Shown: positions 28,712 to 48,514 of the stretch, in pieces | Layout of the letters: each line of letters starts with the position of its first letter | Position numbering within the stretch: the first letter of the stretch is position 1 | Assembly: GCF_022899355.1 (NCBI RefSeq) | Contig: NZ_JALJCK010000003.1 | Location: forward strand, 62,001-126,000 | Source of the DNA: Shinella yambaruensis | Lineage (GTDB): Bacteria; Pseudomonadota; Alphaproteobacteria; Rhizobiales; Rhizobiaceae | Direction of reading: 5' to 3' | DNA length: 64,000 bases | Position numbers and translations under genes: made by a program | Notes under the pieces: model-generated | What the model was told of the DNA's origin: nothing | The model's input: the letters and a program-made list of their open reading frames with translations, nothing else | Databases searched by the model: none

Positions 28712-28729
28712 ATTGAATGAACGTTCAGC
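28712..28729. promoter_or_regulatory. Shared operator site 1, before the Rieske oxygenase gene
   Basis: Core TGAATGAACGTTCA at 28714-28727, inside an AT-rich promoter region, ending 20 bases before the Rieske start codon. The same core is found before the ABC transporter/aminotransferase pair (31644-31657) and before the first FAD oxidoreductase (37584-37597). Outer half-sites TGAA and TTCA are invariant. Binding here would block initiation. The BetI-like TetR encoded at 35969-36667 is the natural candidate regulator. Confidence 0.75.
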
Positions 28730-28747
28730 AAAATACAGGGGAGCGAC

Positions 28748-29944
28748 ATGAACGAGATGATCCGCAATATCAGCGTTCCGAACGACTGGGACAGGAGCGG
28801 ACTTCCCGGCTGGTGTTATCACAGCCCCGCCCTCCTCGAACTGGAGAAGCAGCATGTCTTCCGCGAGCACTGGCAGATCGCCTGCCACGTCTCCGATATT
28901 CCCGAGCCCGGCAACTACCTCGCCATGGACGTCGTCGGCGAGCGCGCGCTCATCCTGCGCGGGCAGGACGGCGCGGTGCGCGCCTTCCACAACATCTGCC
29001 GCCATCGCGGCTCGCGCCTCGTCGCCGACGAGAAGGGCAGCTGCCGCAACGCGCTGGTCTGTCCCTTCCACGGCTGGGTCTACAATCTCGACGGCACGCT
29101 GCGCGGCGCCGCGCGCCCCCGCAGCTTCCCGCCGCTCGACAAGAACGAGTTCGCGCTGAAGGCGCTGGAATGCGAGGTCTGGCAGGGCTTCGTCTTCATC
29201 CGCTTCGCGCCCGGCCCGCAGCCTTCCGTCGCCGAGCTGATGAAGCCCTTCGAGGCGGAGCTGGCGCACTACCGCACCGAGGAGATGATCCCGGCGGGCG
29301 ACATCTGGACCCAGGAGACGCCCGTCAACTGGAAGTCCGTGCGCGACGTCGACAACGAGGGCTACCACGTCGCCATGGCCCATCCCGCCCTGCAGGACCT
29401 CTACGGCTCGACTTACTACGACGAACCCTTCGTCGACGGCCTCTGCCGCTCCTTCGCCACCTACAACCCGCATGCCGGCCGGCGCTGGAGCGTGCGCAAC
29501 TACGTGAAGATCTCGCCGGAAAACCATGCGCTGCCCGAGCGGCTGCGCAAGGCCTGGATCTATTTCGGCCTGTTCCCGAACGCCGTCATCGCCGTCACGC
29601 CGGAGACCGTGCAGTTCTACCAGGAATTCCCGCTCGGTGTCGGCCGGACGCTGCTGCGCGGCGGCATCTATCGCTACCGGCAGGAGGAGCGCGCCCAGCG
29701 CCTCGCCCGCTACCTCGCCTTGCGCATCGACCGCGACACCCAGGCCGAGGACGTGCAGCTCACCGTCTGGTCGAACGAGGCGATGACCTCCAACGCCTTC
29801 GCCGGCTTCTACCTCTCCGACCTCGAATACGGCGTGCGCACCCATCACGACCATCTGCGCAAAGTGCTGCCGGTGGTGACGATGAAGGAGGCGCCGGAGG
29901 AGAAGGCGATGGCGGAGGCCAATGCCGGGCTGCGGCAAGGCTAG
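28748..29944 (+). CDS. Rieske oxygenase alpha subunit (ring-hydroxylating / N-demethylase type)
   Basis: Terminal oxygenase with a [2Fe-2S] Rieske cluster and a mononuclear iron. It has 398 residues. Rieske ligands: Cys84, His86 in ICRHRGSRL and Cys105, His108 in VCPFHGW. Mononuclear iron site: Glu204, His207 and His212 in DNEGYHVAMAHP, with a C-terminal carboxylate expected. Family relatives include glycine betaine and stachydrine demethylases as well as aromatic dioxygenases; the length and the absence of a beta subunit favour an N-demethylase-like single-component alpha subunit. No ferredoxin or reductase gene is in the window, so electron transfer must come from elsewhere. AGGGGA precedes the ATG. 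It opens the island controlled by the shared operator. Confidence 0.92.
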   Translation: MNEMIRNISVPNDWDRSGLPGWCYHSPALLELEKQHVFREHWQIACHVSDIPEPGNYLAMDVVGERALILRGQDGAVRAFHNICRHRGSRLVADEKGSCRNALVCPFHGWVYNLDGTLRGAARPRSFPPLDKNEFALKALECEVWQGFVFIRFAPGPQPSVAELMKPFEAELAHYRTEEMIPAGDIWTQETPVNWKSVRDVDNEGYHVAMAHPALQDLYGSTYYDEPFVDGLCRSFATYNPHAGRRWSVRNYVKISPENHALPERLRKAWIYFGLFPNAVIAVTPETVQFYQEFPLGVGRTLLRGGIYRYRQEERAQRLARYLALRIDRDTQAEDVQLTVWSNEAMTSNAFAGFYLSDLEYGVRTHHDHLRKVLPVVTMKEAPEEKAMAEANAGLRQG

Positions 29945-29974
29945 GTTTCTCCGATAGGCCGTGGGTGCCGCGTG

Positions 29975-30110
29975 GGTCCTCGGGTCAAGCCCGAGGATGA
30001 CGATAGGAGAGAAGCACGGCGGGCAAAAGCGACATGGCCGCATGCCGCACCGCTTGACAGGTGGGAGCCTCCTCCTCCCCACCGTCATCCTCGGGCTTGA
30101 CCCGAGGATC
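29975..30110. repeat. Inverted pair of a 28-bp alphaproteobacterial repeat
   Basis: A 28-base unit with CCTCGGGTCAAGCCCGAGG at its centre occurs at 29975-30002 and, inverted, at 30083-30110, with one mismatch. Each unit is itself a hairpin and the two together form a larger one across 136 bases. It lies between the convergent Rieske oxygenase and aminotransferase genes, where it could end both transcripts. The unit is a familiar small intergenic repeat in alphaproteobacterial genomes. Confidence 0.8.
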
Positions 30111-30142
30111 CGCATCACACCGCAGGCCCAACGCGAAGAGCC

Positions 30143-31567
30143 TCAGCCCTTCCAGAGCCCTTCGCGCGCCAGGTCGTCCATCGTCAGTTCGATCCCCTTG
30201 CGCAGGATCGCCGCCATGTCGTCGATCTGGGCGGAAGTGATGGTGAGCGGCGGCGACATCACGCACATGTTGATGAGCGGGCGCACCAGGAGGCCGAGTT
30301 CCTGGCAATGCCGGTCGATGCGCTTGCCGACCTCCAGGTCGAGCGTCAGCGGGTTCTTGCTGACCCGGTCGGCGACGCATTCCACGCAGGCCATCAGCCC
30401 GAGGCCGCGCACCTCGCCGACCAGCGGCAGGTCCTCCAGCGCCTTCAGGCTCGCCTGGAAATGATCGGTAATGGCACGCGCATGGTCGAGCAGCCCGTCC
30501 TCCAGGATGTCGAGGTTCTTCAGCGCCACCGCGCAGCCGACCGGATGGCTGGAATAGGTCAGCCCATGCGCGAACATCGCCTCCGAATGGTTCGAGCGGC
30601 GCAGTTCCTCGAAGAGGCGCCCGGCGATCATCACGCCGCCGAGCGGGAAATAGCCCGACGTCACGCCCTTGGCGAAGGTGATCATGTCCGGGTCGATGCC
30701 GAAGACGTCCTGCGAGGCGAAGACGTGGCCGAGACGGCCGAAGGCGGTCACCACCTCGTCGGCGATGAAGAGGATGTCGTTGGCGCGGCAGAGCGCGTGC
30801 ATGCGCTTCAGGTAACCGGCGGGCGGCACGATGACGCCGCCGGATGCCATGACCGGCTCGGCGATGAAGGCGCCGATATGTTCCGCCCCCCTCTCCTCGA
30901 TCACCGCGCGGAACTCCTCCACGAGGAAATCGCAGAAGGCCTCGACGCTCATGCCCTCCGGCCGGCGGAACGGATCGGGGCAGGACAGCTTGACGACGAG
31001 ATCGGCGGCGCTGTCCATCCAGTCATGGTCGCGCGGCCGGCCGTTGAGCGAGGCGGAGAGGTACGTCGAGCCGTGATAGCCGCCCTGGCGCGAGACGATC
31101 AGCTTCTTCTCCGGCCGGCCCTTCACATTGTTGGCGAACTGCATGAAGCGCAGCGCCGTCTCGACCGCCGACGAGCCGCCGGTCGTGTAGAAGACATGGT
31201 CGATCCCGTCGGGCGCATGTTCGGCAAGGCGGGCGGAGAGCACGGCGGACGGCGCGTTGGTCGTGTACCAGGGCGAATTGTAGGAGAGCTCCATCGCCTG
31301 CGCGGCCATGACGTCGGCCAGTTGCCTGTTGCGATGGCCGGCATTGACGCACCACATGCCGGCAGGCCCGTCGATCAGGCGCCGGCCGGCGGCATCGGTC
31401 ACATAGATGCCCTCGCCCGCCTCGATGCGCCCGCGCGCCTCCGCGCCGATGGAGCCGGAAACCGGCCAGGGCTGCACCAGATGGCGCTCGGCCAGCCGGG
31501 TGAGTTCGTCGCCGGCCGCCTCGTCGGCACGCCGGTCCTCGTTCGCCGTCTTCGGAATTGCCGCCAT
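30143..31567 (-). CDS. Class III aminotransferase (PLP)
   Basis: PLP enzyme of the omega-amino acid/polyamine aminotransferase group, 474 residues. Key blocks: TTGGSSAVETALRFMQF (phosphate binding), GGYHGSTYLSASLNG, FIADEVVTAFGRLGHVFAS (Asp that contacts the PLP nitrogen), ITFAKGVTSGYFPLGGV (Schiff-base Lys) and HGLTYSSHPVGCAVAL. ATG 31567 is preferred because GGAGAGGGAC precedes it; ATG 31579 adds four residues. It is divergent from the ABC transporter operon across shared operator site 2. In this setting it probably transaminates an amine such as a polyamine or an amino product of the pathway. Confidence 0.92.
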   Translation of the reverse strand: MAAIPKTANEDRRADEAAGDELTRLAERHLVQPWPVSGSIGAEARGRIEAGEGIYVTDAAGRRLIDGPAGMWCVNAGHRNRQLADVMAAQAMELSYNSPWYTTNAPSAVLSARLAEHAPDGIDHVFYTTGGSSAVETALRFMQFANNVKGRPEKKLIVSRQGGYHGSTYLSASLNGRPRDHDWMDSAADLVVKLSCPDPFRRPEGMSVEAFCDFLVEEFRAVIEERGAEHIGAFIAEPVMASGGVIVPPAGYLKRMHALCRANDILFIADEVVTAFGRLGHVFASQDVFGIDPDMITFAKGVTSGYFPLGGVMIAGRLFEELRRSNHSEAMFAHGLTYSSHPVGCAVALKNLDILEDGLLDHARAITDHFQASLKALEDLPLVGEVRGLGLMACVECVADRVSKNPLTLDLEVGKRIDRHCQELGLLVRPLINMCVMSPPLTITSAQIDDMAAILRKGIELTMDDLAREGLWKG

Positions 31568-31641
31568 GTCCCTCTCCATCGATTATTTGCCAGAAAAAAT
31601 CTCGGAACAACGATATGAAAGATTTTGGTTTTCCCAATCAT

Positions 31642-31659
31642 ATTGAATGTTCGTTCAAT
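31642..31659. promoter_or_regulatory. Shared operator site 2, aminotransferase/ABC transporter divergent promoter
   Basis: ATTGAATGTTCGTTCAAT is an 18-base dyad with perfect 6-base ends (ATTGAA/TTCAAT) and contains the core TGAATGTTCGTTCA. It lies 75 bases before the aminotransferase start codon and 170 bases before the permease start codon, in a 261-base divergent intergenic region whose remaining sequence shows no gene. One bound regulator could control both directions. Confidence 0.75.
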
Positions 31660-31828
31660 CAATATTGCAGAAACAGGGCTTGATTTCAACGGGGATTTCG
31701 GCGCATGCTGTCCACCAGGGAACAGCAGCGTGCCCGAGAAGGAGCACGCAGAGGCCGAAAAGGCGCAGGCGCATGGGAACGGGAAATCTCACGCTCTACG
31801 AGAGTTGTCGCGGCGGGAGTTGCGGCCG

Positions 31829-32746
31829 ATGACGGCGGCGGCGTTCGGCGCGCTTGCCGATACGCCCTCCTCCGGGAGGCGCAAGGCCTGGATGCGCAGC
31901 GAGGAGGCCCGCGGCCTCGCCCTGATCTCGCCGACCTTCCTCTATGCACTGGCGCTGCTCTTCCTCCCGGTCCTCATCGTCATCGCCTACAGTTTCTGGA
32001 CCCAGGACTATCTCGACATCGACCGCACCTTCACGCTGGAGAACTACCGGCAGGCCCTCACCGAGCCGATCTACCGTGACCTGTTCGTCCGCTCGCTGTG
32101 GATCTCGCTGACGGTCAGCATCGTCACCGTCGTCTTCTCCTATCCGGTCGCCTGGTTCATCTCCTTCCACGGCGGGGTGCACAAGAACCTCTGGCTCTTC
32201 CTCGTCACCGTGCCCTGCTGGACGAGCTATCTTCTGCGCGTCATGTCGTGGAAGGTCATCCTCGGCTATGGCGGCGTCATGAACACCGGCCTCATCTCGA
32301 TGGGCCTCATCGACAAGCCGCTGACCTCGCTGCTCTACAATTCCAACGCCGTCGTCATCACGCTGGTGCACAGCTGGGCGGCCTTCGCCATCCTGCCGAT
32401 CTACGTCTCGCTGCAGAAGATCGACCGCACGCTGATCGAGGCGGCGCGCGATCTCGGCGACAGCCGCCTGAAGGCCTTCCTGCGCATCACCCTGCCGGTC
32501 TCGCTGCCCGGCATCATCTCCGCCTTCCTGATCGTGATGATCCCGACCGTCGGCGACTATGTCACGCCGCGCCTCGTCGGCGGCAAGGACGGCGTGATGA
32601 TCGCGACCGCCATCCAGGCGCAGTTCGGCAAGGCCGCCAACTGGCCGCTCGGCGCTGCCCTCTCCGTCACGACCATGGTGCTCGTTTCGCTGACGGCGGC
32701 GGCCGTCGTGCTGGCACTGAAGTTCACCGTCAGGAGGATCAGATGA
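31829..32746 (+). CDS. PotB-like ABC transporter permease
   Basis: Inner-membrane subunit of a spermidine/putrescine-type importer, 305 residues. Membrane segments begin at SPTFLYALALLFLPVLIVIAYSF; the permease loop EAARDLGDSRLKAFLRITLPVSLPGI (EAA motif that docks to the ATPase) is intact. ATG 31829 is preferred; the frame extends 68 codons upstream but that part is not permease-like and would run over the operator. The stop overlaps the next start (ATGA), showing translational coupling with the second permease. First gene of a three-gene transporter operon. Confidence 0.92.
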   Translation: MTAAAFGALADTPSSGRRKAWMRSEEARGLALISPTFLYALALLFLPVLIVIAYSFWTQDYLDIDRTFTLENYRQALTEPIYRDLFVRSLWISLTVSIVTVVFSYPVAWFISFHGGVHKNLWLFLVTVPCWTSYLLRVMSWKVILGYGGVMNTGLISMGLIDKPLTSLLYNSNAVVITLVHSWAAFAILPIYVSLQKIDRTLIEAARDLGDSRLKAFLRITLPVSLPGIISAFLIVMIPTVGDYVTPRLVGGKDGVMIATAIQAQFGKAANWPLGAALSVTTMVLVSLTAAAVVLALKFTVRRIR

Positions 32747-33567
32747 GCCTCCTCACGCAGCGCCTGCGCGTCCTTCCGTTCCTGCCGGCCTATGTCGCGC
32801 TCTATTTCCTCTTCCTCTACCTGCCGATCCTGCTTCTGCCGGTCTTCTCCTTCAACGATGCGGCGACGACCACCTTCCCCCTCGCCGGCTTCACCACCAA
32901 GTGGTACGCCTCGCTCGCCGGCAATTCGGTCATGCTGCAAGCGGCCTGGAACAGTCTCGTCGTCGGCGTCGCCGTCTCGCTGCTCTCCACCGTGCTCGGC
33001 ATCTGCGCCGCCCGCGCCATCACGCGCTACCGCTTCCGCGGCCAGAGGGCGGCGGCCGGCCTCATCATGGCGCCGCTCTTCCTGCCGGAGATCATCGTCG
33101 CCGTGTCGCTCTTGATGATCGTGCTCGCGATGGGCGTCGAACTGTCGCTGATCACGGTCATCCTCGGCCAGACGGTGTTCTGCGTGCCCTATGCCATGTC
33201 GGTGCTGGTCTCCGGCTTCGAGGGCTTCGACCGCAGCCTGGAGGAAGCCTCCTACGATCTCGGCGAGACCGCGATCGGCACCTTCCGGCGCGTCACGCTG
33301 CCGGTCGTCGCGCCGGCCATCGTCTCCAGCCTGCTCGTCACCTTCACCATCTCGCTCGACGAGTTCATCCTCGCCTTCTTCCTTTCCGGCACCGAGCCGA
33401 CGCTGCCGGTCTATATCTGGGGGCAGTTGCGCTTCGCGGCGAAGCTGCCGGGCGTGCTGGCGCTCGGCAGCGTCATGCTCGTCGCCTCCATCCTGATGCT
33501 CACCCTTGCCGAGATCCTGCGCCGCCGGGCCGAGCGCCGCACGCAGATGGCATTCACGCTGCCTTAG
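32743..33567 (+). CDS. PotC-like ABC transporter permease
   Basis: Second inner-membrane subunit, 274 residues. It starts at ATG 32743 overlapping the upstream stop by four bases, preceded by AGGAGG. It has six probable membrane segments and the docking loop EEASYDLGETAIGTFRRVTLPVVAPAI. The typical PotC segment SFNDAATTTFPLAGFTTKWY follows the first helix. With PotB-, PotA- and PotD-like genes nearby it completes a canonical importer. Confidence 0.92.
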   Translation: MSLLTQRLRVLPFLPAYVALYFLFLYLPILLLPVFSFNDAATTTFPLAGFTTKWYASLAGNSVMLQAAWNSLVVGVAVSLLSTVLGICAARAITRYRFRGQRAAAGLIMAPLFLPEIIVAVSLLMIVLAMGVELSLITVILGQTVFCVPYAMSVLVSGFEGFDRSLEEASYDLGETAIGTFRRVTLPVVAPAIVSSLLVTFTISLDEFILAFFLSGTEPTLPVYIWGQLRFAAKLPGVLALGSVMLVASILMLTLAEILRRRAERRTQMAFTLP

Positions 33568-33582
33568 AAACAGGAGCCGGAC

Positions 33583-34692
33583 ATGGCCGACCGCCCGATG
33601 ATCGAGATCGCCAACGTGTCGAAGTTCTACGGCATCTACAAGGCGCTCGACGATGTCTCGCTCACCATCGGCGAAGGCGAGTTCTTCTCGCTGCTCGGGC
33701 CCTCCGGCTGCGGCAAGACCACGCTCTTGCGCTCCATCGCCGGCTTCGAGACACCGACGGCGGGCGAGATCTTCATCGACGGCGTGCCCTCCCTCGCGCT
33801 GCCGCCGAACCGGCGCCCGACCAACATGGTCTTCCAGAACTACGCCATCTTCCCCCATCTCGACGTCGCCGAAAACGTCGCCTACGGCCTGAAACGGCTG
33901 AGGCTTTCCGCGCAGGACGAGAGGAAGCGGGTGGGCGACGCGCTCGACCAGGTGCGCCTTTCCGGCCTCGGCCAGCGCAAGGCGCACGAACTCTCCGGCG
34001 GCCAGCGCCAGCGCGTGGCGCTCGCCCGCGCCCTCGTCATGCGGCCGAAGGTGCTGCTGCTCGACGAACCGCTCTCCGCCCTCGACAAGAAGCTGCGCGA
34101 GGAGATGCAGGTGGAGCTGCGCACGCTGCAGAAGGCCGTCGGCATCACCTTCATCCTCGTCACGCACGACCAGTACGAGGCGCTGGCGCTCTCCGACCGC
34201 ATCGCCGTGATGTTCGGCGGCCGCATCGCGCAGATCGCCAGCCCGAAGGAGATCTACCAGCGCCCGCGCACCCGCAAGGTCGCCGATTTCCTCGGCGGCA
34301 TGAATTTCCTGAAGGCGAAGGTGCTGGGAGAACAGGGCAACGCCGTCTCCGTCGACGCCGCGCGCTTCGGCGCCGTCAATCTCGACAAGCCGCAGGGTTT
34401 TGCCGCCACCAACGGCCACGTCACCGTCGGCATCCGCCCGGAACGGCTGCGGCTCCTGTGGGACGACGACCGCGCCCCGCATGAGCTTGCCGGCCGCATC
34501 GAGAACCGCGCCTATTTCGGCGAGGTCACACATCTGACGGTCGGCGTCGACGGTCTGGAACAGCCGCTCTCGCTGGTCGAGACGAACAGTTTCGGCGCCG
34601 ACGACCTGCCGGTCGGCGCTGAGATCCGGCTGGCCTATGATCCGGAGGCGTTCGTGTTGCTGGCGGAGGATCCGCCGGTTACGCGCGTGTGA
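33583..34692 (+). CDS. PotA-like ABC transporter ATP-binding protein
   Basis: ATPase of the importer, 369 residues. Walker A GPSGCGKTT (about residues 40-48), Q-loop VFQNYAIFPHL, signature [15 protein letters not shown], Walker B LLLDEPLSALD and switch LVTHDQ are all present; a C-terminal TOBE-type domain (about 240-365) binds regulatory ligands in the family. It starts 15 bases after the permease stop with AGGAG before ATG. A RIME-like repeat follows and separates it from the convergent binding-protein gene. Confidence 0.95.
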   Translation: MADRPMIEIANVSKFYGIYKALDDVSLTIGEGEFFSLLGPSGCGKTTLLRSIAGFETPTAGEIFIDGVPSLALPPNRRPTNMVFQNYAIFPHLDVAENVAYGLKRLRLSAQDERKRVGDALDQVRLSGLGQRKAHELSGGQRQRVALARALVMRPKVLLLDEPLSALDKKLREEMQVELRTLQKAVGITFILVTHDQYEALALSDRIAVMFGGRIAQIASPKEIYQRPRTRKVADFLGGMNFLKAKVLGEQGNAVSVDAARFGAVNLDKPQGFAATNGHVTVGIRPERLRLLWDDDRAPHELAGRIENRAYFGEVTHLTVGVDGLEQPLSLVETNSFGADDLPVGAEIRLAYDPEAFVLLAEDPPVTRV

Positions 34693-34693
34693 G

Positions 34694-34845
34694 TGGCCCC
34701 TCATCCCGCTGCCGCGACCTTCTCCCCGCAAGCGGGGAGAAGGAAGCTGGTGGTGACGCTTTTGCGATGATCGAAGGAAACCCTGCGGCAATGTCCCTTC
34801 TCCCCGCTTGCGGGGAGAAGGTGGCCGGCAGGCCGGATGAGGGGC
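34694..34845. repeat. RIME-like intergenic mosaic repeat, copy B (inverted)
   Basis: Starts GCCCCTCATCC and ends GGATGAGGGGC, with palindromic blocks around CCCCGCAAGCGGGG and CCCCGCTTGCGGGG. Its right half is the reverse complement of the left half of copies A and C, so it is inserted in the opposite orientation. It fills the gap between the convergent ATPase and binding-protein genes and is likely to end both transcripts. Confidence 0.85.
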
Positions 34846-34857
34846 CGCCGCCCCCTC

Positions 34858-35940
34858 TCAATACCCCGATTTGATCTTCTCGAACTCCGCGATCATCTTC
34901 TGCCGCAACTCCGTCGGGATCGGCGCCTGGAACAGGGTGTTGGCGACGAAGGCGTCGACGTCCGCATAGCCCTTGTCGGCGAGGATCTTCGGATCGACGG
35001 CGGCCATGCCCTTGGCGTTGGAATGGCCGTAGCCCCAGCTCTCGACCATATAGGCCGCAATGCCCGGATCGGTGACGGCGTTGAGGTAGTCATAGGCAAG
35101 ATCTGCGCTGCCTTCGCCGCCCTTCAGCCGCGAATAGCCGCAGACCCAGGTGGACAGCCCCTCCTTGGTGTCCTTCTTGATGGCGACCGGCTGGCTTTCG
35201 GCCTGCAGCGTCGTCGCCGTCTCGTTCCAGGCCCAGGCGAGATCGACCTCGCCGCTCGCCAGCGCCTGGCTGAGGTCGGTATTGTCCGTCCAGTAGAGCC
35301 GCACGTTCTTGTGCACCTCGCGCAGGAAGGCGGAAGCCTCCTCGAACTGCGCGTCCGTCAGGCTCGCCCAGTCCTTGACGCCGATGGCAAGGCTCGCCAG
35401 CGCATAGGCATCGTCCACATTGTCGCCGATCGAGACACGGTCCTTGAACTTCGGATCGGCGAAGGCCCTGAGCGAGGCGATTTCTTCCGGCTTCACCGTG
35501 TCGGTACGGTAGGTCAGCACCGTGTTGCCCCATTCGAACGGCAGGAACCAGGCCGTGCCGTCGTCCGAGGTCATCAGGTTCTTCATGCCCTTGAAGGCCG
35601 GCAGGATATCGTTCCACGCGGCCAGCCTGGACGTGTCGAGCGGCTCGAGCAGCCCGGCCTCGCGCCATTTCACGATGCTCTGCGCGCAGGGATGCGCAAG
35701 ATCGGCCTTGAAGCCGGAGCGCAGTTTCTGGAAGGCCTCCTCCTCGTCGCCGAAGAACGAGAAATCCGGCGAGCCGCCGTGCTTTTCCGTGTAGGCGGGG
35801 TGGAAGGCGGGGTCCTCGTAGCCGGACCAGTCGAAGACGGTGAGCGTATCGGCGGCAAGGGCTGGAAGGGCGGTTCCGAGGGCGAGGAAGGCGGCCAATG
35901 CCGCTATCGTGGTGCGTTTGGCCTTGTCTTTGGTCTTCAT
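34858..35940 (-). CDS. PotD-like periplasmic substrate-binding protein
   Basis: Captures the substrate for the PotABC-like importer. It has 360 residues. The signal peptide TTIAALAAFLALGTALPALA is cleaved near ALA-AD. The mature protein starts TLTVFDWSGYEDPAF, which resembles polyamine-binding proteins (family start WxxY). Aromatic and acidic residues that could hold a cationic ligand are frequent (SFFGDEEEAF, FEWGNTVLTYRTD, AWAWNET). The gene is on the opposite strand to the three other importer genes and lies 28 bases after the BetI-like regulator gene, so it is probably co-transcribed with the regulator and methyltransferase genes. The ligand could be a polyamine, a betaine or a related cation. 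Confidence 0.9.
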   Translation of the reverse strand: MKTKDKAKRTTIAALAAFLALGTALPALAADTLTVFDWSGYEDPAFHPAYTEKHGGSPDFSFFGDEEEAFQKLRSGFKADLAHPCAQSIVKWREAGLLEPLDTSRLAAWNDILPAFKGMKNLMTSDDGTAWFLPFEWGNTVLTYRTDTVKPEEIASLRAFADPKFKDRVSIGDNVDDAYALASLAIGVKDWASLTDAQFEEASAFLREVHKNVRLYWTDNTDLSQALASGEVDLAWAWNETATTLQAESQPVAIKKDTKEGLSTWVCGYSRLKGGEGSADLAYDYLNAVTDPGIAAYMVESWGYGHSNAKGMAAVDPKILADKGYADVDAFVANTLFQAPIPTELRQKMIAEFEKIKSGY

Positions 35941-35968
35941 GCCGTACTCCTTCCCCGTTTCGGGTTCC

Positions 35969-36667
35969 CTATTGTGATTGTGGTCCTTGCAAGGTGAGAT
36001 GCTTCGGGAAGATCGCGACGACGAAGGCGATCGCCGCCTCCAGCGCCTTTTCCCGCGTGGTGCCGTCGCCCATCATCAGGCGCAGCCACAGGCCCTCCAG
36101 CATGGCGCAGAGCGAGAGCGCCATCGGCTCCGGCTCGTAGGCGTAATCGCCCTCCGCCTTCAGCGCGGCGCAGAGCGAGATCACGGTCTCCTGGTATTTC
36201 ACGTCGCGCGCGCCGCACAGCGCCTGGTAGGTCGGCCGGGACTTGGCCTCGCCCCAGAAGGCGCACCAGGCGGCAAGCTTGCGCTTGGTGCAGATCTTGC
36301 GGTCGAAATCCGCATGAACCAGTGCCCAGACGCGGCTCGCCGCATTCGGGCCGGCCTTTTCCAGCGCCGCGTTCCAATGGTCCGCATATTCCTCGGACAT
36401 GAACTGCAGCGTGGCGATAAGCAGGTTTTCCTTGCTCTCGAAATGGAAGTTGACGATGCCGCGCGAAAGGCCGGCGCCGTCCGCGACATCCGCGAGCGTC
36501 GTGTCGGAATAGCCGCGCCTTGCAAGCGAATCGATCGTCGCCTCGACGAGCTGCTGCCGCCGCGTCTCCTTGGAGGCCTTGCGCCCCCGCTTCTCGCCGT
36601 CGCCCGAGCCCTGTTCAGCCCCGCCTGCCCGCATCTTCACCGCCACCTTGCCTTTGGGATTGCGCAT
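35969..36667 (-). CDS. TetR regulator, BetI-like
   Basis: A 232-residue repressor. A basic, Gly-rich N-terminal extension (about 1-30) leads into a helix-turn-helix: RRQQLVEATIDSLARRGYSDTTLADVADGAGLSRGIVNFHFESKENLL. The GIVNFHFESK recognition block and the later KLAAWCAFWGEAKSRPTYQAL and LEGLWLRLMM blocks resemble BetI, the choline/betaine-responsive repressor. ATG 36667 follows the methyltransferase stop by 8 bases; ATG 36634 is an alternative with a better ribosome site. It is the obvious candidate to bind the three TGAATG(A/T)(A/T)C(A/G)TTCA operators, which I infer and have not shown. Confidence 0.87.
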   Translation of the reverse strand: MRNPKGKVAVKMRAGGAEQGSGDGEKRGRKASKETRRQQLVEATIDSLARRGYSDTTLADVADGAGLSRGIVNFHFESKENLLIATLQFMSEEYADHWNAALEKAGPNAASRVWALVHADFDRKICTKRKLAAWCAFWGEAKSRPTYQALCGARDVKYQETVISLCAALKAEGDYAYEPEPMALSLCAMLEGLWLRLMMGDGTTREKALEAAIAFVVAIFPKHLTLQGPQSQ

Positions 36668-36675
36668 CGTCACGG

Positions 36676-37494
36676 TCACGGGCGCACTCCCGCGGCCGGC
36701 CTGACGCCGCGCAGATGAGCCGGACAATGCTCCCCGCTGTCAAGAACCTTCTGCATGGCCGTCCAGGTGCGGATGTTTTTGGCGACATAGGCCTCGCCCA
36801 CCGCCGCCACCGCCTCGGCATGGAGCGGCCCTTGCAGCCGCGCCAGCTCGCCGCGCGCCACCTCGCGATACCAGGCATTGCGGCTCTCCACCGTGCCGTC
36901 GGCAAATCCCGCCGCCGCCATCGCCTCAAGGTAGCGGCGCGGCGAGGCCATGCCGAAGCTCAGCCCTTCGGCGGCGATGTAGTCCTGCATGTCCGGGCTC
37001 GGCGCGCCGTCATGGCCGATCAGCCAGTCGGACGCGGCCAGAACGCCGCCCGGCTTCAGCACGCGGAAAAGCTCGGCGAACAGCGCCTCCTTGTCCGGCA
37101 CGTGGATCATCGCATCCTTGGAGAAGACGACGTCGAACTCACTATCGTCGAACGGCAGGCGGCCCGGCGGGCTGGAGACGAAGCGCGCCACCGCGCAAAG
37201 CCCCGCACTTGCCGCAGCCGCCCGCGCCCGGTCGATGACCGGCTGCTCCACGTCGTAGCCGACGATCTCGGCCGGGCCGTGGGTCCTTGCGATATGCAGC
37301 GTGATGCCGCCTGCCCCGCAGCCGAAATCGAGGACGCGCCTGCCCTTCAAGTCGACGCCCGCAAGGACGCGATCGACCTCCGCCGGTCCGCCCGGCGAAA
37401 GATAGCCGTCGCCCCACAGGACCGCGAGGAAGCGGATCGCAGCCTCGTCATATTCCGGCTCCGCCGCCGCACCGTCCCTGCCCGTTGCCGTCAT
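36676..37494 (-). CDS. Class I SAM-dependent methyltransferase, N-methyltransferase-like
   Basis: A 272-residue methyltransferase. SAM motif I is VLDFGCGAGGITLHIA (about residues 55-70), an acidic residue follows at VGYDVEQP, and the post-motif FSKDAMIHVPDKEALFAELFRVLKPGG resembles the SRDTILHI/DKPALF block of phosphoethanolamine and glycine/sarcosine N-methyltransferases. The start is ATG 37494 or GTG 37506, both close to GGAGG. It is divergent from the first FAD oxidoreductase across shared operator site 3, and is followed by the regulator and binding-protein genes. A methyltransferase inside a demethylation-type island is unexpected; it may recycle or detoxify a methylated product, or modify an intermediate. 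Confidence 0.85.
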   Translation of the reverse strand: MTATGRDGAAAEPEYDEAAIRFLAVLWGDGYLSPGGPAEVDRVLAGVDLKGRRVLDFGCGAGGITLHIARTHGPAEIVGYDVEQPVIDRARAAAASAGLCAVARFVSSPPGRLPFDDSEFDVVFSKDAMIHVPDKEALFAELFRVLKPGGVLAASDWLIGHDGAPSPDMQDYIAAEGLSFGMASPRRYLEAMAAAGFADGTVESRNAWYREVARGELARLQGPLHAEAVAAVGEAYVAKNIRTWTAMQKVLDSGEHCPAHLRGVRPAAGVRP

Positions 37495-37581
37495 GGCCTC
37501 CGTCACCCTTCGGCCGCATGGCCGGCGCGCTTTTTCCCTGGCCGAAATTCTAGCGCATAATCAGGCGATTGCAAGATACTT

Positions 37582-37599
37582 GCTGAATGATCATTCAGA
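37582..37599. promoter_or_regulatory. Shared operator site 3, methyltransferase/FAD oxidoreductase divergent promoter
   Basis: TGAATGATCATTCA at 37584-37597 is a perfect 14-base palindrome and extends to CTGAATG...CATTCAG. It lies 61 bases before the oxidoreductase ATG and about 90 before the methyltransferase start codon, so it can serve both directions. It matches sites 1 and 2 at all fixed positions. Confidence 0.78.
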
Positions 37600-37657
37600 A
37601 TATCTGGACAACATTTTGCTTTTGATGCAGCTTTTAGAAACAAGGGAGACATCAAAA

Positions 37658-39277
37658 ATGCAAAAGTACGATGCCCTGATCGTCGGCGGCGGCCATAACG
37701 GGCTCGTCGCCGCCTGCTATCTCCAGCGCTCCGGCCTGAACGTCGCGGTGCTCGAAAAGAACGGCTGGGTCGGCGGGGCGGCGACGAGCCGCGAGCTGAC
37801 CCCGGGCTTCCTCTACTCCAACTGTTCCTATGTCTGCTCCCTCTTCCGGCCGGAGATCATGCGCGACCTGGAACTGCCGAAACACGGCCTCCAGGTCATC
37901 GCCTACGAGGGCGGCGCGGTCTTCACCCGCGACGGCGACTACCTCGCCTCCTACCGCGACCACGACAGCCACCGCCGCGAATTCGCGCGCTATTCGAAGC
38001 GCGACGCCGAGGCCTACGAGCGCTACGCCCGCGACGTGACGCGCCAGTGCCGCTTCATCCAGCCGCTCCTGATGCGCACGGCGCCCGACCCCTTCGGTTT
38101 TCGCCCGCGCGACCTCTCCGAATTCCTCTATCTCGCCAGAAAGTTCGGCGAATTCAGCCCGCAGGAAATGGCCGAGACGCTGCGCTTCTGGACCATGTCG
38201 ATCTCCGATTTCCTCGACGAATATTTCGAGACCGACGTCATCAAGGCCTATCTCGCGCTCTCGGGCATCATCGGCACCGCGCTCGGCCCCATGTCGCCCG
38301 GCACCGCCTATGTCCTGCTGCACCACTATATGGGCGAGGTAGACGGCTCCGTCGGCGCCTGGGGCTATGCGCGCGGCGGCATGGGCGCGGTGACGCAGGC
38401 GCTCGCCCGCTCCTTCGAGGCTTCCGGCGGCACCATCCGCACCGATGCCGAGGTCTCGAAAATCCTCACCCGCGGCGGCAGGACCACCGGCGTCGTGCTC
38501 GCCAATGGCGACGAAGTCAGCGCCCGCCTCGTCGTCTCGAATGCCGACGTGAAGCGCACCTTCCTCAAGCTCGTCGACGAGGACACGCTGCCCGGCGACT
38601 TCGTCCACCGGGTCAGGCATTTCAAGATGCGCGGCTCCTCCGGCAAGGTGAACATCGCGCTCGACAGCCTGCCGGCGTTCCCGGCTTTGCCGGAAGGCTC
38701 CTCCTGCATACGCGGCGACATGCATTTCACCGATTCGATCGAGCGCATGGAACGCGCCTATGACGACTGGAAGGCGGGCCGCTGGTCGGCCGATCCCTTC
38801 CTCGACATGGTGATCCCGACGACGCTCGACCCGACCATGGCCTCGCCGGGAAAGCACTTCATGAGCTGCTTCGTGCAGTACTGCCCGCCGAAGCTTCAGG
38901 GCCGCGACTGGACGGATGCCGACCGCGACGCCTTCGCCGAGACGGTGATCGGCCAGATCGCCGATTATTCGCCGGGCTTCCGCGAACGCATCGTGCATAT
39001 GGAGGTGCGCACGCCGCGCGAGATCGAGAACGAGGTGGGCCTGACGGAGGGCAACATTTTCCAGGGCGAGCTCACCTTCGACCAGTTGCTCTTCAACCGG
39101 CCGGTGCCCGGCTACGCCCAGTACCGCAGCCCGATATCCGGCCTCTACATGTGCGGCTCCTCCACCCATCCGGGCGGCGGGGTGATGGGCGCGCCCGGCC
39201 GCAACGCCGCCGCCGAGATCCTGCGCGACCTGAAGCGTTCCCCCGAACAGATGAGCAAAGCCCATGACGTCATTTGA
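37658..39277 (+). CDS. CrtI-like FAD-dependent oxidoreductase 1
   Basis: A 539-residue amine oxidase/phytoene dehydrogenase-type flavoprotein. The N-terminal Rossmann motif is YDALIVGGGHNGLVAACYL with VAVLEKNGWVGGAATS, and the C-terminal FAD block PISGLYMCGSSTHPGGGVMGAPGRNAA matches the family. The start ATG 37658 follows AGGGAGA at proper spacing. The stop overlaps the next gene by 14 bases, so translation is probably coupled. Family members oxidise amines or unsaturated chains; the neighbourhood (aminotransferase, PotD-like protein) suggests an amine or its ylidene intermediate, but the substrate is not readable from sequence. Confidence 0.9.
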   Translation: MQKYDALIVGGGHNGLVAACYLQRSGLNVAVLEKNGWVGGAATSRELTPGFLYSNCSYVCSLFRPEIMRDLELPKHGLQVIAYEGGAVFTRDGDYLASYRDHDSHRREFARYSKRDAEAYERYARDVTRQCRFIQPLLMRTAPDPFGFRPRDLSEFLYLARKFGEFSPQEMAETLRFWTMSISDFLDEYFETDVIKAYLALSGIIGTALGPMSPGTAYVLLHHYMGEVDGSVGAWGYARGGMGAVTQALARSFEASGGTIRTDAEVSKILTRGGRTTGVVLANGDEVSARLVVSNADVKRTFLKLVDEDTLPGDFVHRVRHFKMRGSSGKVNIALDSLPAFPALPEGSSCIRGDMHFTDSIERMERAYDDWKAGRWSADPFLDMVIPTTLDPTMASPGKHFMSCFVQYCPPKLQGRDWTDADRDAFAETVIGQIADYSPGFRERIVHMEVRTPREIENEVGLTEGNIFQGELTFDQLLFNRPVPGYAQYRSPISGLYMCGSSTHPGGGVMGAPGRNAAAEILRDLKRSPEQMSKAHDVI

Positions 39278-40820
39278 TGCCATCGTGATCGGCGCCGGCC
39301 ACAACGGCCTTGCCGCCGCCACCCGCCTCGCCAGGGGCGGCCGCAGGGTCCTGGTGCTGGAAGCGGCGAACGAGCCGGGCGGGGCGACGCGCGGCCGCGA
39401 GTTCGCGCCCGGCTTCCGCTCCGCCGGCCTCGCCCATCTCGTCAACCGGCTCGATGCGGACGTGGCGCGCGACATCGGCCTCGACCTTGCCGGCGCCGAT
39501 ACCTTGCTGCCGACCACGGTTCTCGACGGCTCGGGAAAGGCCGCCGTGCTGCACGGCGCCTATGGCGAGCGCATCGACGGCGTCTCACCCGGGGAAGCGG
39601 ACGCCTTCGCGGCCCTGCGCAGGAAGCTGGTCTTCCAGGCGGGCATCCTGAAGCGGTTCCTCCGCCGCCCGCCGCCGCAGATCGGCGCGCTCTCGCTCGG
39701 CGACCTCTCCACCTTCGCCGCTACCGGCTTCGGCCTCATCCGCAAGGGGCGCGGCGAGGGCCGCGATTTCCTGCGCATGCTGCTGATGAACGTCGCCGAC
39801 GTCGCCGACGAATATCTTTCGGACGACCGGCTGAAGGGCCTCCTCGCCTTCGATGCGACGCTCGGCATCCATCTCGGCCCCCGCTCGCCGACCTCCCTGC
39901 TCGGCCTCTACTATCGCCTGACCGGCGAGGTCGCGGGCAAGGCCGGCGGCCAGTTCGTGCCGGCAGGCGGCATGGCGCGCGTCGCGCCCGCCTTCCTGCG
40001 CGCCGCCGAAAAGGCCGGCGTCACCCTGCGCTGCGGCACGTCCGTCGGCCGCATCCTCGCCGATCGCGGCCGGGCGAGCGGCGTGGTTCTCGGCGACGGC
40101 ACGGAGATCGTTGCCCCCGTCATCGTCTCGGCTATCCACCCGCAGACGACCTTCCTCCGCCTCGTCGATCCCGCCGAAAGCGGCACCGGTTTCGTGCGCT
40201 CGGTGAAGAACGTGCGCAGCCACGGCAATGTCGCCAAGCTCGACCTCGCGCTCGACCGCATCCCGAACTTCACCGGCCTGCCGGCGGAAGCCCGCGGCGG
40301 GCGCATCGTGCTGGTGCGCTCGATGGAGCAGGTCGAGGAGGCCTTCAACCCGGCGAAGTACGGCGAATTCTCCAGCGACCCCGTCATGGAGGTGACATTG
40401 CCGAGCCTTGCCGACCCGTCATTGGCGCCCAGCGGCGGCTGCACAGTGTCGGCACTCGTGCAATATGCGCCCTACCGCCTCAAGGCGGGCTGGGAGAGCG
40501 GCAAGCCGGCCTTCCTCAGGATCGTGCTCGACACGCTGGAACGCCATGCGCCTGGCCTCGGAAAGTCCGTGGTCGCGGCCAGCCTGATGACGCCGGTCGA
40601 TATCGAGACGGAATACAACCTGCCGGGCGGCCATTGGCATCACGGCGAATTGCAGGCCGACCAGCTGCTCGTCAACCGGCCGACCGGCGCCGCCTCCGGT
40701 TACCGCACGCCCATCGAAGGCCTTTATCTCGCGAGCGCCGGGGCGCATCCGGGCGGCGGCATTTCCGGCCTGCCGGGCTGGAACGCGGCCCGCCACATCC
40801 TTTCGGGAGCGAGCGCATGA
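39264..40820 (+). CDS. CrtI-like FAD-dependent oxidoreductase 2
   Basis: A second flavoprotein of the same family, 518 residues: FDAIVIGAGHNGLAAATRLARGG with VLVLEAANEPGGATRG, and a C-terminal PIEGLYLASAGAHPGGGISGLPGWNAA. It shares only patchy identity with oxidoreductase 1, so the pair is not a very recent duplication. It overlaps the upstream gene by 14 bases and the downstream GcvT-like gene by four bases (ATGA), a tight operon. Two related flavoproteins in series suggest two successive oxidations or a heteromeric enzyme. Confidence 0.9.
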   Translation: MTSFDAIVIGAGHNGLAAATRLARGGRRVLVLEAANEPGGATRGREFAPGFRSAGLAHLVNRLDADVARDIGLDLAGADTLLPTTVLDGSGKAAVLHGAYGERIDGVSPGEADAFAALRRKLVFQAGILKRFLRRPPPQIGALSLGDLSTFAATGFGLIRKGRGEGRDFLRMLLMNVADVADEYLSDDRLKGLLAFDATLGIHLGPRSPTSLLGLYYRLTGEVAGKAGGQFVPAGGMARVAPAFLRAAEKAGVTLRCGTSVGRILADRGRASGVVLGDGTEIVAPVIVSAIHPQTTFLRLVDPAESGTGFVRSVKNVRSHGNVAKLDLALDRIPNFTGLPAEARGGRIVLVRSMEQVEEAFNPAKYGEFSSDPVMEVTLPSLADPSLAPSGGCTVSALVQYAPYRLKAGWESGKPAFLRIVLDTLERHAPGLGKSVVAASLMTPVDIETEYNLPGGHWHHGELQADQLLVNRPTGAASGYRTPIEGLYLASAGAHPGGGISGLPGWNAARHILSGASA

Positions 40821-42049
40821 ACGCCATGACGAAATCCGCCGCGGAGCTGCGCCGCGCCGCCCGCAACCATATCCTCGCGCCGCGGCTCGAAAGCCCGTTC
40901 CATGATCGTCTGATGGCGCTGAGCGAGGTCAACGACTGGTACAACTGGGCGGGCTACAAGGCGCCGCATGCGCTGTTCGACGGCGAACTCGAATATTTCG
41001 CCATCCGCTCCACCGCCGCCCTCTTCGACATCTCGCCGATGGTGAAGTACCGCATCGCCGGCCCGGACGCCGAGCGCTACCTCAACCGGCTGACCCTACG
41101 CGACGTGCGCAAGCTCGGCGTGAACCGCGTGCACTACACCGCCTGGTGCGACGACCACGGCCATGTGCTGGACGACGGCACGCTCTTCCGCCTCGGCAAG
41201 AACGAATTCCGCCTCTGCTGCCAGGAACGCCACCTGCCCTGGCTCCTCGACAGCGCCTTCGGCTTTGCGGTCGACATCCACGAGGAGACGGAGGAGATCG
41301 CCGGCCTCGCCCTGCAGGGGCCGACGAGCTACGCGGTGCTGCGCGATGCCGGGTTTGCCGGTGTTGAGCAATTGAAACCCTTCCATATAGGCGCCTTCCC
41401 GCATGAGGACGGCGACGTGACCATATCGCGCACCGGCTTCACCGGCGATCTCGGCTACGAACTCTTCGTGCCCCGCGCCAGGGCGCTTTCCTTGTGGGAC
41501 CGGGTGTGGCGCGCCGGCGCGCCGCACACGATCCGCGCCATCGGCTACGGCGCGCTCAACCAGGCGCGCATCGAGGCCGGCTTCATCGTCGCCAATACGG
41601 ATTTCGTCACCGCCGAGGGGGCGCTGCGCGCCGACCGGGTGCGCATGCCGGACGAGATCGGCCTCGACTGGCTGGTCGATCCGGACAAGCCGAATTTCAA
41701 CGGGCGCCGGGCGATCCTCGACGCGCGGCGGAATCAATCTCTCAAGCACATCCTCGTCGGCCTTGAAATCGAAGGGAATATTCCCGCCGAGCATGCCATC
41801 GTCTATCATCGGCAAAAGCACGAGGCGGGCCTCGTCACCGCCGCGATCTGGTCGCCGACGGCCAAGCGCAACATCGCCATCGCCAGCCTCGAACGGCCCT
41901 ACGGATCGAAGTTCACGGAGGACCTTTGGGTGGAGATCTATGCGATGCGGGAGCTGAAATACCAGAAGCTGATGAAACGGGCGAAGATCGTGCCGCGCCC
42001 CTTCGTCAGGCTCGCCCGACGCACAGCAAGCCCGCCGGGCCTCACCTGA
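40817..42049 (+). CDS. GcvT-like aminomethyl/demethylase family protein
   Basis: A 410-residue member of the GcvT/DmdA/sarcosine oxidase folate-binding family. It starts MNAMTKSAAELRRAARNHIL; the central ISPMVKYRIAGPDAERYLNRLTLRDV, LALQGPTSYAVLRDAGF and ISRTGFTGDLGYELFVP blocks are family hallmarks for tetrahydrofolate binding. Length is near that of DmdA and larger than GcvT. It would move a methyl or methylene group to tetrahydrofolate, fitting the breakdown of a methylated substrate. The gene overlaps the upstream stop by four bases and is followed after one base by a small gene. No H-protein or P-protein gene is nearby, so this is not the glycine cleavage system. Confidence 0.9.
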   Translation: MNAMTKSAAELRRAARNHILAPRLESPFHDRLMALSEVNDWYNWAGYKAPHALFDGELEYFAIRSTAALFDISPMVKYRIAGPDAERYLNRLTLRDVRKLGVNRVHYTAWCDDHGHVLDDGTLFRLGKNEFRLCCQERHLPWLLDSAFGFAVDIHEETEEIAGLALQGPTSYAVLRDAGFAGVEQLKPFHIGAFPHEDGDVTISRTGFTGDLGYELFVPRARALSLWDRVWRAGAPHTIRAIGYGALNQARIEAGFIVANTDFVTAEGALRADRVRMPDEIGLDWLVDPDKPNFNGRRAILDARRNQSLKHILVGLEIEGNIPAEHAIVYHRQKHEAGLVTAAIWSPTAKRNIAIASLERPYGSKFTEDLWVEIYAMRELKYQKLMKRAKIVPRPFVRLARRTASPPGLT

Positions 42050-42050
42050 C

Positions 42051-42308
42051 ATGGACGAGGAGACCCGCCGCAACTGGGAGATCATCGCCATGCCGCCCGG
42101 CGCCGAATGGTCCGGGCGCGCGCGCTATGCGGCGGCCATGTATTTCTGCCAGCGCGGCGAGATGGCGCCGGAGGTGCTGGAGGTCTACCGCATCTGTTCG
42201 CGGCTCGATGCGGAGGACCCGGTTTCCGTGCTGCGGCGCTGGAAGATCGGCGGCGAGTGGATCGAACGGCTCGAGGCCTATCGCGCCGAGGGGGCGTGCG
42301 AGGAATAG
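42051..42308 (+). CDS. Small acidic protein at the end of the FAD/GcvT operon
   Basis: An 85-residue protein that I do not recognise. ATG is one base after the GcvT-like stop, which implies translational coupling and makes the frame credible despite its small size. It contains Trp, Arg and Glu in a likely helical arrangement (GRARYAAAMYFCQRGEMAPEVLEVYRICSRLDAEDPVSVLRRW). The 3' end overlaps the convergent TetR gene by 31 bases. No signal peptide or membrane segment. It may be a small partner of one of the flavoproteins or of the GcvT-like protein. Confidence 0.65.
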   Translation: MDEETRRNWEIIAMPPGAEWSGRARYAAAMYFCQRGEMAPEVLEVYRICSRLDAEDPVSVLRRWKIGGEWIERLEAYRAEGACEE

Positions 42309-42904
42309 GTCGCGAACAGGCGGCGGAGGGCATCCCTGCCTTCGCTGGCGATATCGAACCTGCGGCCGAACAGCAGCCATTCCGAGCACAGGCCCTTGAT
42401 GACCCAGCGCAGCATGGAGGCCGCCGAGCGCGGCGTCCAGCAGGCGCAGAGTTTTCCCTGTTTCTCCGCCTTGGCGAAGGCGGCTTCCAGCGCCTGCATG
42501 TGCTCGTCGTCGAGATCGTTCTGCCGCTCGGAGATCGCGGAAAATTCGCCGGACGTATCGCAGCGCAGGAGGATCGACAGGATGCGCTGGCGGTGCTCGT
42601 CGGTGGCGAGCAGTTCGAGCCATTCGCGGCCGACCCGTTCGAGCACCGCGAAGACATCGGCGTTTTCGGCTTCCAGCTCGCGGGCGATCAGGTCCTCCTG
42701 CGGCATGGGCAGCGAATTGTAGAGCTCCAGCACGAGATCCGCCCGGTTGGCGAAGTGCCAGTAGATGGCGCCGCGGGTGACCCCCGCGGCACGCGCCACA
42801 TCCTCCATGGAGGCATGGGCGACACCTTTTTCGTAGAAGACCTTTTCTGCCGCCAGCAGGATCTGCTGGCGGGTTTCCTTGGCCTCTGCCTTGGTCCGGC
42901 GCAT
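42278..42904 (-). CDS. TetR/AcrR-family regulator at the distal end of an efflux operon
   Basis: A 208-residue repressor close to AcrR/TtgR in pattern: TRQQILLAAEKVFYEKGVAHASMEDVARAAGVTRGAIYWHFANRADLV (helix-turn-helix, about 10-60). ATG lies 6 bases after the permease stop, so it is transcribed with the adaptor and permease genes. This differs from the usual divergent acrR position. Its probable operator is the dyad at 47429-47452 upstream of the adaptor, giving negative autoregulation of the whole operon. Confidence 0.9.
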   Translation of the reverse strand: MRRTKAEAKETRQQILLAAEKVFYEKGVAHASMEDVARAAGVTRGAIYWHFANRADLVLELYNSLPMPQEDLIARELEAENADVFAVLERVGREWLELLATDEHRQRILSILLRCDTSGEFSAISERQNDLDDEHMQALEAAFAKAEKQGKLCACWTPRSAASMLRWVIKGLCSEWLLFGRRFDIASEGRDALRRLFATYSSHAPSAR

Positions 42905-42910
42905 GGCGGC

Positions 42911-46048: not shown

Positions 46049-46059
46049 CGTCCGGATCC

Positions 46060-47343: not shown

Positions 47344-47428
47344 GGGTTCTTCCATAAGCGGTGCCGCCCGAAGCGCGGCAGGGTCCTGAAAACGTGAAGA
47401 TGCGGTGATCGCAGGACCACCGCATCGC

Positions 47429-47452
47429 AACATACAAACAACGCTGTATGTT
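47429..47452. promoter_or_regulatory. AcrR/TtgR-type dyad operator before the second efflux operon
   Basis: AACATACA and TGTATGTT are perfect 8-bp arms around an 8-base centre, a layout typical of TetR operators for multidrug pumps. It lies 86 bases before the adaptor start. Next to it (47399-47426) is a second inverted repeat, GATGCGGTG / CACCGCATC, which would form a hairpin in the leader RNA. The regulator encoded at the end of the same operon is the likely binder. Confidence 0.75.
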
Positions 47453-47512
47453 AGTTTCTGACGTTTGACAATCACTGCCGCGGCGCCAATCACGGACTTG
47501 TGATGAGGGTCC

Positions 47513-48514
<1,002 letters not shown>

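Follow-up and report, generated by a model that had tools for sequence, protein, structure and literature searches.

The window studied here is a stretch of 64,000 nucleotides from the 6.87-Mb genome of Shinella yambaruensis, and eleven genes within it (28748-42049, hereafter the island) very probably form a single regulon. They encode a Rieske oxygenase, a class III aminotransferase, a PotABCD-like importer, a TetR-type repressor, a methyltransferase, two related flavoproteins (FP1 and FP2) and a GcvT-like protein. We explain the set best, with modest confidence, as a pathway of import, serial N-demethylation and transamination. That the substrate is an N-methylated amine is probable; the exact order of the steps (Rieske oxygenase, then FP1 and FP2 with the GcvT-like protein, then aminotransferase) is tentative. 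An earlier sequence-only reading of this DNA had proposed one co-regulated island serving one pathway. Co-regulation is borne out by the co-occurrence of the genes across 151 genomes and by an operator unique in the genome, whereas the unity of the pathway is put in doubt by the trio FP1-FP2-GcvT, which also occurs alone, and by three genomes that keep the core without it.

The operator is a 14-bp palindrome, TGAAYGNNCRTTCA, with three perfect copies in the window (Table 1). With no mismatches allowed, the whole genome contains it only at these three sites, and a backward-pattern control gave no hits, which confirms the shared operators noticed in the first reading. Judging by gene direction, all eleven genes could be read from these three promoters, and they likely fall into five transcription units: the Rieske gene; the aminotransferase gene; potBCA; methyltransferase-tetR-potD; and FP1-FP2-gcvT. 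Only perfect sites carry weight, because with two mismatches allowed the count in the window is no higher than chance (6 found vs 6.2 expected). The pattern was also derived from the three island sites themselves, and its weight therefore lies in its absence elsewhere in the genome and in its recurrence in relatives. The island's TetR protein, which presumably binds these operators, carries the BetI-type C-terminal domain PF13977 and scores below both BetI choline repressor cut-offs (117 bits against 201, and 112 against 118).

To see how the genes co-occur, we used a sample of 151 genomes from the family Rhizobiaceae. An ortholog of the GcvT-like protein is present in 31 genomes, each of which is also among the 36 with a Rieske ortholog; a PotD ortholog (at least 60% identity, matches at 48% or below being excluded) is found in 29, every one among the same 31. 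Fisher tests on this co-occurrence, which ignore shared ancestry, gave values of 1e-24 or lower. The Rieske and GcvT genes share a contig in 28 of the 31 genomes and lie at most 25 kb apart in 25. We compared 30 family neighbourhoods around the GcvT gene, several of which end at contig or stretch limits: FP1 and FP2 are present in all 30, always in the order FP1-FP2-GcvT and side by side, as is the BetI-type TetR gene, followed by PotD (28), the methyltransferase (26), the aminotransferase (25) and potB (24).

A second sample, of loci found with FP1 (the best 80 of 585 candidates), left 66 once 14 with short flanks were dropped; genes were counted here at minimum identities of 40-60%, set gene by gene. 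FP2, GcvT and the BetI-type TetR gene occur in all 66 loci, PotD in 62, the aminotransferase in 61, potB, potC and potA each in 59, the methyltransferase in 52 and the Rieske gene in at least 31, the stretch ending 10 kb upstream. These loci contain 87 copies of TGAAYGNNCRTTCA, and every one stands upstream of an island gene, no more than 400 bases away, 49 of them in the aminotransferase-potB gap. At least one perfect operator is found in 57 of the 66 loci, and the operator occurs in 26 of the 30 family neighbourhoods. Two outcomes had been named beforehand as refuting a single pathway, lack of co-occurrence in other genomes and a response to different inducers; the idea of one co-regulated island passes the first of these tests, as the set recurs from genome to genome under an operator that the rest of the S. 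yambaruensis genome lacks.

All the gene families first named from the letters alone are present, and the tight packing described then is also real, with overlaps of 4 bases at potB/potC and FP2/GcvT and of 14 bases at FP1/FP2. The end of the island had been placed too far downstream, at 42308, which falls inside a different TetR gene; the true end is the GcvT stop at 42049. At least 80% of the 13.4-kb island is matched as DNA in four plasmid records, three from Shinella and one from Ensifer adhaerens, and the best named relative of FP1 among the matches listed is from Shinella granuli (99%).

Table 1. Genes and operator sites of the island (positions in the window).
Feature	Position	Strand	Remarks
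Operator TGAATGAACGTTCA	28714..28727	.	Upstream of Rieske gene; perfect site
Rieske oxygenase alpha subunit	28748..29944	+	398 residues; CntA/GbcA-like N-demethylase type
Class III (omega) aminotransferase	30143..31579	-	NCBIfam PRK07036 group
Operator TGAATGTTCGTTCA	31644..31657	.	Between divergent aminotransferase and potBCA; perfect site
PotB-like permease	31829..32746	+	ATG start inferred; open frame from 31625
PotC-like permease	32743..33567	+	
PotA-like ATPase	33583..34692	+	
PotD-like binding protein	34858..35940	-	Altered pocket
BetI-type TetR repressor	35969..36667	-	ATG start inferred
S-adenosylmethionine (SAM)-dependent methyltransferase	36676..37506	-	PF08241
Operator TGAATGATCATTCA	37584..37597	.	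Between divergent methyltransferase and FP1; perfect site
FP1, CrtO/CrtI-like flavoprotein	37658..39277	+	ATG start inferred
FP2, FP1 paralog	39264..40820	+	Overlaps FP1
GcvT-like protein, stand-alone	40817..42049	+	PF01571; overlaps FP2

In the scheme we propose, the TetR/BetI-type repressor would hold the five likely units under the three like operators until an inducer is present. The PotABCD-like importer would then be made; its cargo would be an N-methylated onium compound, for which an omega-amino acid betaine, or a methylated amine like it, is the most likely candidate. Aided by a reductase borrowed from elsewhere, the Rieske oxygenase would strip the quaternary nitrogen of its first methyl group. 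The N-methyl carbons that remain would be oxidised by FP1 and FP2, each oxidised carbon being trapped by the partner GcvT protein as methylene-tetrahydrofolate, and the final primary amine would pass to the class III aminotransferase. The substrate, the reactions and their order, and the FP-GcvT partnership are proposed on the basis of gene families and neighbourhoods; a methylated amine or betaine-like substrate would suit both the enzymes' families and the pocket of the PotD-like protein.

The Rieske protein has the domains PF00355 and PF00848, and both the CxH...CxxH cluster motif and the mononuclear-iron His motif of Rieske oxygenases; the motifs CRH, CPFH and EGYH....H are kept in all 15 aligned sequences, the window's included. 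Among solved structures carnitine monooxygenase comes nearest, with a match that covers only residues 20-218 of the 398, and the alignment places a Glu at the position of what we take to be the bridging Glu of that enzyme. It is not a GbcA equivalog (141 bits vs a cut-off of 670). The lack of a ferredoxin reductase, already remarked on in the sequence-only reading, holds: the island has no PF00175 protein, and the five in the genome all lie elsewhere, two of them adjoining other Rieske genes. The aminotransferase (PF00202) scores 695 bits against the PRK07036 cut-off of 618.

The importer was first described as a polyamine-type system. The PotABCD-like set of subunits stands, but polyamine as the cargo is doubtful. 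Compared with E. coli PotD, whose ligand residues we take to include the polyamine-binding acids E36, D168, E171 and D257, the aromatic residues W34, Y37, W229, W255 and Y293 are kept in 29/29 orthologs, while three of the four acids are lost (E36 to Gly in 29/29, D168 to Asn in 28/29 and D257 to Cys in 29/29). E171 is replaced by Asp and Y85 by Gln, both in 29/29. The protein thus departs from the acid set of PotD, and its score as a PotD equivalog is 81 bits, where the cut-off is 582. This pocket appears better suited to one onium group than to a polyamine. Among nine other binding proteins compared, those of L129, L135, L136 and L138 (L numbers denote the loci we extracted) show the pattern seen in the window, and those of L128, L134 and L177-L179 keep more of the acids.

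The GcvT-like protein (PF01571, 1.2e-54) had been called GcvT/DmdA-like, and the DmdA half of that label fits less well. It has the GCV_T fold and the conserved Asp of the T-protein superfamily: Asp120 aligns with position 96 of the Thermotoga maritima T-protein, presumably the catalytic acid, and this position is acidic in 129/129 sequences (124 D, 5 E). Its best curated match in NCBIfam is trimethylamine N-oxide (TMAO) demethylase (252 bits, below the 1100 required for a full match to this two-domain enzyme), followed by GcvT (195) and then DmdA (110 bits, against an equivalog cut-off of 410). TMAO demethylase also tops its solved-structure matches, and there are matches of about 37% to DUF1989 proteins encoded on Rhizobium plasmids. 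Since the acid of the methylene-transferring T-proteins is kept and DmdA scores lower, the protein more likely captures an oxidised methyl group as methylene-folate, together with the flavoproteins.

FP1 and FP2 are 34% identical. Neither is a CrtO or CrtI carotenoid enzyme by the curated cut-offs: FP1 scores 310 of 1000 bits for CrtO and 132 of 238 for crtI_fam, and FP2 186 and 116 bits against the same thresholds. The predicted fold of FP1 (mean predicted local distance difference test score 80) is closest to that of carotenoid desaturases, with putrescine and monoamine oxidases next. Amine oxidation by the pair, and its coupling to folate, are what the neighbourhood suggests. We considered K331 of FP1 (numbered within a 540-residue stretch) as the catalytic lysine of amine oxidases, CrtI having Ser there. 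We dropped this candidate because the position varies between K and R (141 K and 22 R of 163 for FP1; 106 K, 19 R and 2 other of 127 for FP2) and, when profiles were compared with the monoamine oxidase (MAO)-like family, only the N-terminus could be aligned.

The trio FP1-FP2-GcvT is portable and found beyond the family. An FP1 profile matched 74 of 385 genomes of the class, S. yambaruensis included, and we took 40 of the places listed: the 17 best outside its own genome, one paralog within it and 22 lower-scoring ones picked by hand. The three genes are side by side in 18 of the 40, and 2 further pairs are cut at contig ends; the rest are one pair without GcvT and 19 single, more distant flavoproteins. 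Trios stand alongside importer, aminotransferase and Rieske genes in L134, L135 and L138, and with such genes also on Fuscovulum and Parasedimentitalea plasmids.

Several known systems resemble parts of the island. In glycine betaine breakdown (GbcAB, DgcAB, SoxBDAG), a Rieske enzyme acts first on the quaternary amine and flavoproteins then pass one-carbon units to folate (PMC12093977). In our scheme the island would follow the same Rieske-first, folate-coupled logic; its gene content and shared operator are those expected of such a pathway, to which amine oxidation by FP1 and FP2 and the coupling to folate would have to be added. Where that system has DgcAB and SoxBDAG, the island has CrtO-like flavoproteins and a stand-alone GcvT; an aminotransferase and PotABCD-like import are added, a TetR protein stands in for GbdR, and there is no GbcB-type reductase. 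Dimethylglycine and sarcosine dehydrogenases (DAO-GcvT fusions) couple flavin amine oxidation to a GcvT domain, as the trio would, and solved members of this type match the island's GcvT; the island differs in having separate genes, another flavoprotein family and no such fusion. The C-terminal GcvT domain of the TMAO demethylase Tdm is the part that the island's GcvT resembles best, yet the island protein lacks the DUF1989 half and is partnered by a flavoprotein pair. With the dimethylsulfoniopropionate (DMSP) demethylase DmdA it has the fold in common, at the low score given above. The likeness to the carnitine monooxygenase CntA, that is, the closest solved relative and the Glu at the bridging site, is limited by the partial match and by the absence of a CntB-type partner. 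From the PotABCD polyamine importer the island differs not in subunits or families but in its replaced pocket acids.

Some observations weigh against import, serial N-demethylation and transamination as one pathway. The scheme leaves the methyltransferase without a role. A perfect operator is absent from 4 of the 30 family neighbourhoods and 9 of the 66 FP1 loci. By sequence and by fold, FP1 is nearest to carotenoid desaturases, with amine oxidases second. The trio occurs in L147-L149, L165 and L171 with no transporter, Rieske or aminotransferase gene in the stretch taken. It pairs with more-acidic binding proteins in L128 and L134, so the substrate may differ by lineage. Conversely, L177-L179 keep the Rieske, methyltransferase, TetR, importer and aminotransferase genes without the trio (aminotransferase identity to the window's 68%, 68% and only 28%), and the search of the 151 genomes found no GcvT ortholog in these three; those steps can therefore run without FP1-FP2-GcvT. 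L177-L179 belong to five genomes with a Rieske ortholog and no GcvT ortholog. The fourth, L180, is a 5-kb contig. In the fifth, L181 (genome G114), the Rieske gene is 53% identical to the window's and lies at L181:6935-18984 with an aminotransferase (46%), another aminotransferase of class III, a tandem pair of DAO-GcvT fusions and a gene of the MTTB family. By analogy, this locus weakly supports the idea that the trio does the job of dimethylglycine/sarcosine dehydrogenases. A stronger claim, that the fusions replace the trio, was dropped: it would rely on a single genome, and DAO-GcvT fusions are widespread in any case (present in 85 of the 151 genomes, with three in S. yambaruensis itself), which also counts against the scheme.

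A rival reading has two modules sharing one switch, with the Rieske, aminotransferase, methyltransferase, regulator and importer genes serving one compound and the trio recruited as a general methylamine or one-carbon module. The core without the trio in L177-L179 speaks for such an arrangement, as does the trio without the core in the five stretches named above, with glnE beside it in L148 and L171. On the other hand, all genomes with a GcvT ortholog in the family sample also have a Rieske ortholog, and the operator spans both parts; we consider two modules unlikely, though a serious alternative. Going by size, we at first took the large gene beside stand-alone trios for a TonB receptor; it is GlnE in both loci tested (L148 and L171) and therefore carries no information on uptake.

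Less likely still is a methylated heterocycle of the proline betaine, homarine or trigonelline type as substrate, with the Rieske enzyme attacking the ring or N-methyl group and the flavoproteins opening or dehydrogenating the ring. The Rieske demethylases 3vca and 4qup, one of which we take to be stachydrine demethylase, are among the nearest solved relatives of the island's Rieske protein. Old yellow enzyme (OYE)-type oxidoreductases, which act in N-methylproline breakdown, join some versions of the cluster (L129:20325-22364, with an Oxidored_FMN match, and by similarity L134:1315-3321, L138:4377-6407 and L181:2851-4923). However, an omega-type aminotransferase requires an open-chain primary amine, and none of the eleven genes encodes a ring-opening hydrolase.

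Could the cluster make or modify a methylated amine, with the methyltransferase as its key enzyme, rather than degrade one? The SAM-dependent methyltransferase is one of the set and accompanies the core also where the trio is absent. Nevertheless, it is missing from 4 of the 30 family neighbourhoods and 14 of the 66 FP1 loci, and catabolic clusters are typically built from an importer, a repressor, enzymes of oxidation and an acceptor based on folate, so biosynthesis is improbable. That FP1 and FP2 belong to carotenoid or isoprenoid metabolism and lie near amine genes by accident is barely credible: their best curated names are CrtO and crtI_fam, far under cut-off, and the nearest fold to FP1 is a carotenoid desaturase, but the GcvT neighbourhood is fixed (30/30), the operator is shared, no other island gene is a carotenoid gene, and putrescine and monoamine oxidases are among the top folds.

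Beyond the island, we regard it as possible, if short of probable, that FP1-FP2-GcvT represents a widespread, undescribed class of folate-coupled N-demethylases, a CrtO/PYROXD2-like, three-protein counterpart of dimethylglycine/sarcosine dehydrogenase, and a bacterial model for human PYROXD2, to whose broad family we take FP1 and FP2 to belong. Two human studies link PYROXD2 to methylated amines: a missense variant explains 50% of the variance in N6-methyllysine and 48% in dimethyllysine, with trimethyllysine and N-methylpipecolate also tied to it (PMC8109053), and the gene region is linked to urinary trimethylamine and plasma dimethylamine (PMC3169529). These links are compatible with an N-methylamine oxidase. 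Among the papers listed in our search of the open-access literature, none describes this cluster, and in annotated records such proteins carry no more than the labels 'NAD(P)/FAD-dependent oxidoreductase' and 'aminomethyltransferase family protein'. If our reading is true, the proteins so labelled gain a job, demethylating amines and feeding the folate pool, and the cluster would point to the use of methylated amines or betaines by rhizobia and some Rhodobacterales.

Versions of the cluster vary in further ways. An MAO-like amine oxidase gene is carried by 20 of the 30 relatives and 40 of the 66 FP1 loci; in the 20, it lies in the potA-potD gap in 17, next to potD in 2 where the stretch reaches no potA, and some kilobases off in 1 (L037). 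It is absent from all 7 named Shinella loci checked, and S. yambaruensis has no full-length match to it elsewhere in its genome; the window's own potA-potD gap (34695-34846) holds nested palindromic repeats where 17 of the 30 relatives have this gene. Tandem duplicated potD-like genes occur in L033, L038, L089 and L119. A DMSP_lyase-family cupin is found at L128:24647-25498 (PF16867), with similar genes at about 5594 in L177 and 4343 in L179. It prompted a DMSP-type reading, which was rejected as the eleven genes include no such cupin.

Distant relatives of FP1 also occur in other settings. In Shinella sumterensis (L131:8995-11746), a distant homolog (42%) is followed directly by gcvT inside a CoA-type catabolic cluster, which repeats the pairing of flavoprotein and GcvT, and in S. 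yambaruensis itself a distant paralog (35%) lies near another PotABCD-like set (L153, contig C30). Within the window, the gap between the convergent Rieske and aminotransferase genes (29952-30133) contains a 56-nucleotide imperfect inverted repeat (77%). Outside the island, the separate TetR gene at 42278-42904 has a MAATS-type C-terminus and adjoins an apparent resistance-nodulation-division (RND) efflux pump and adaptor (42278-47685 in all).

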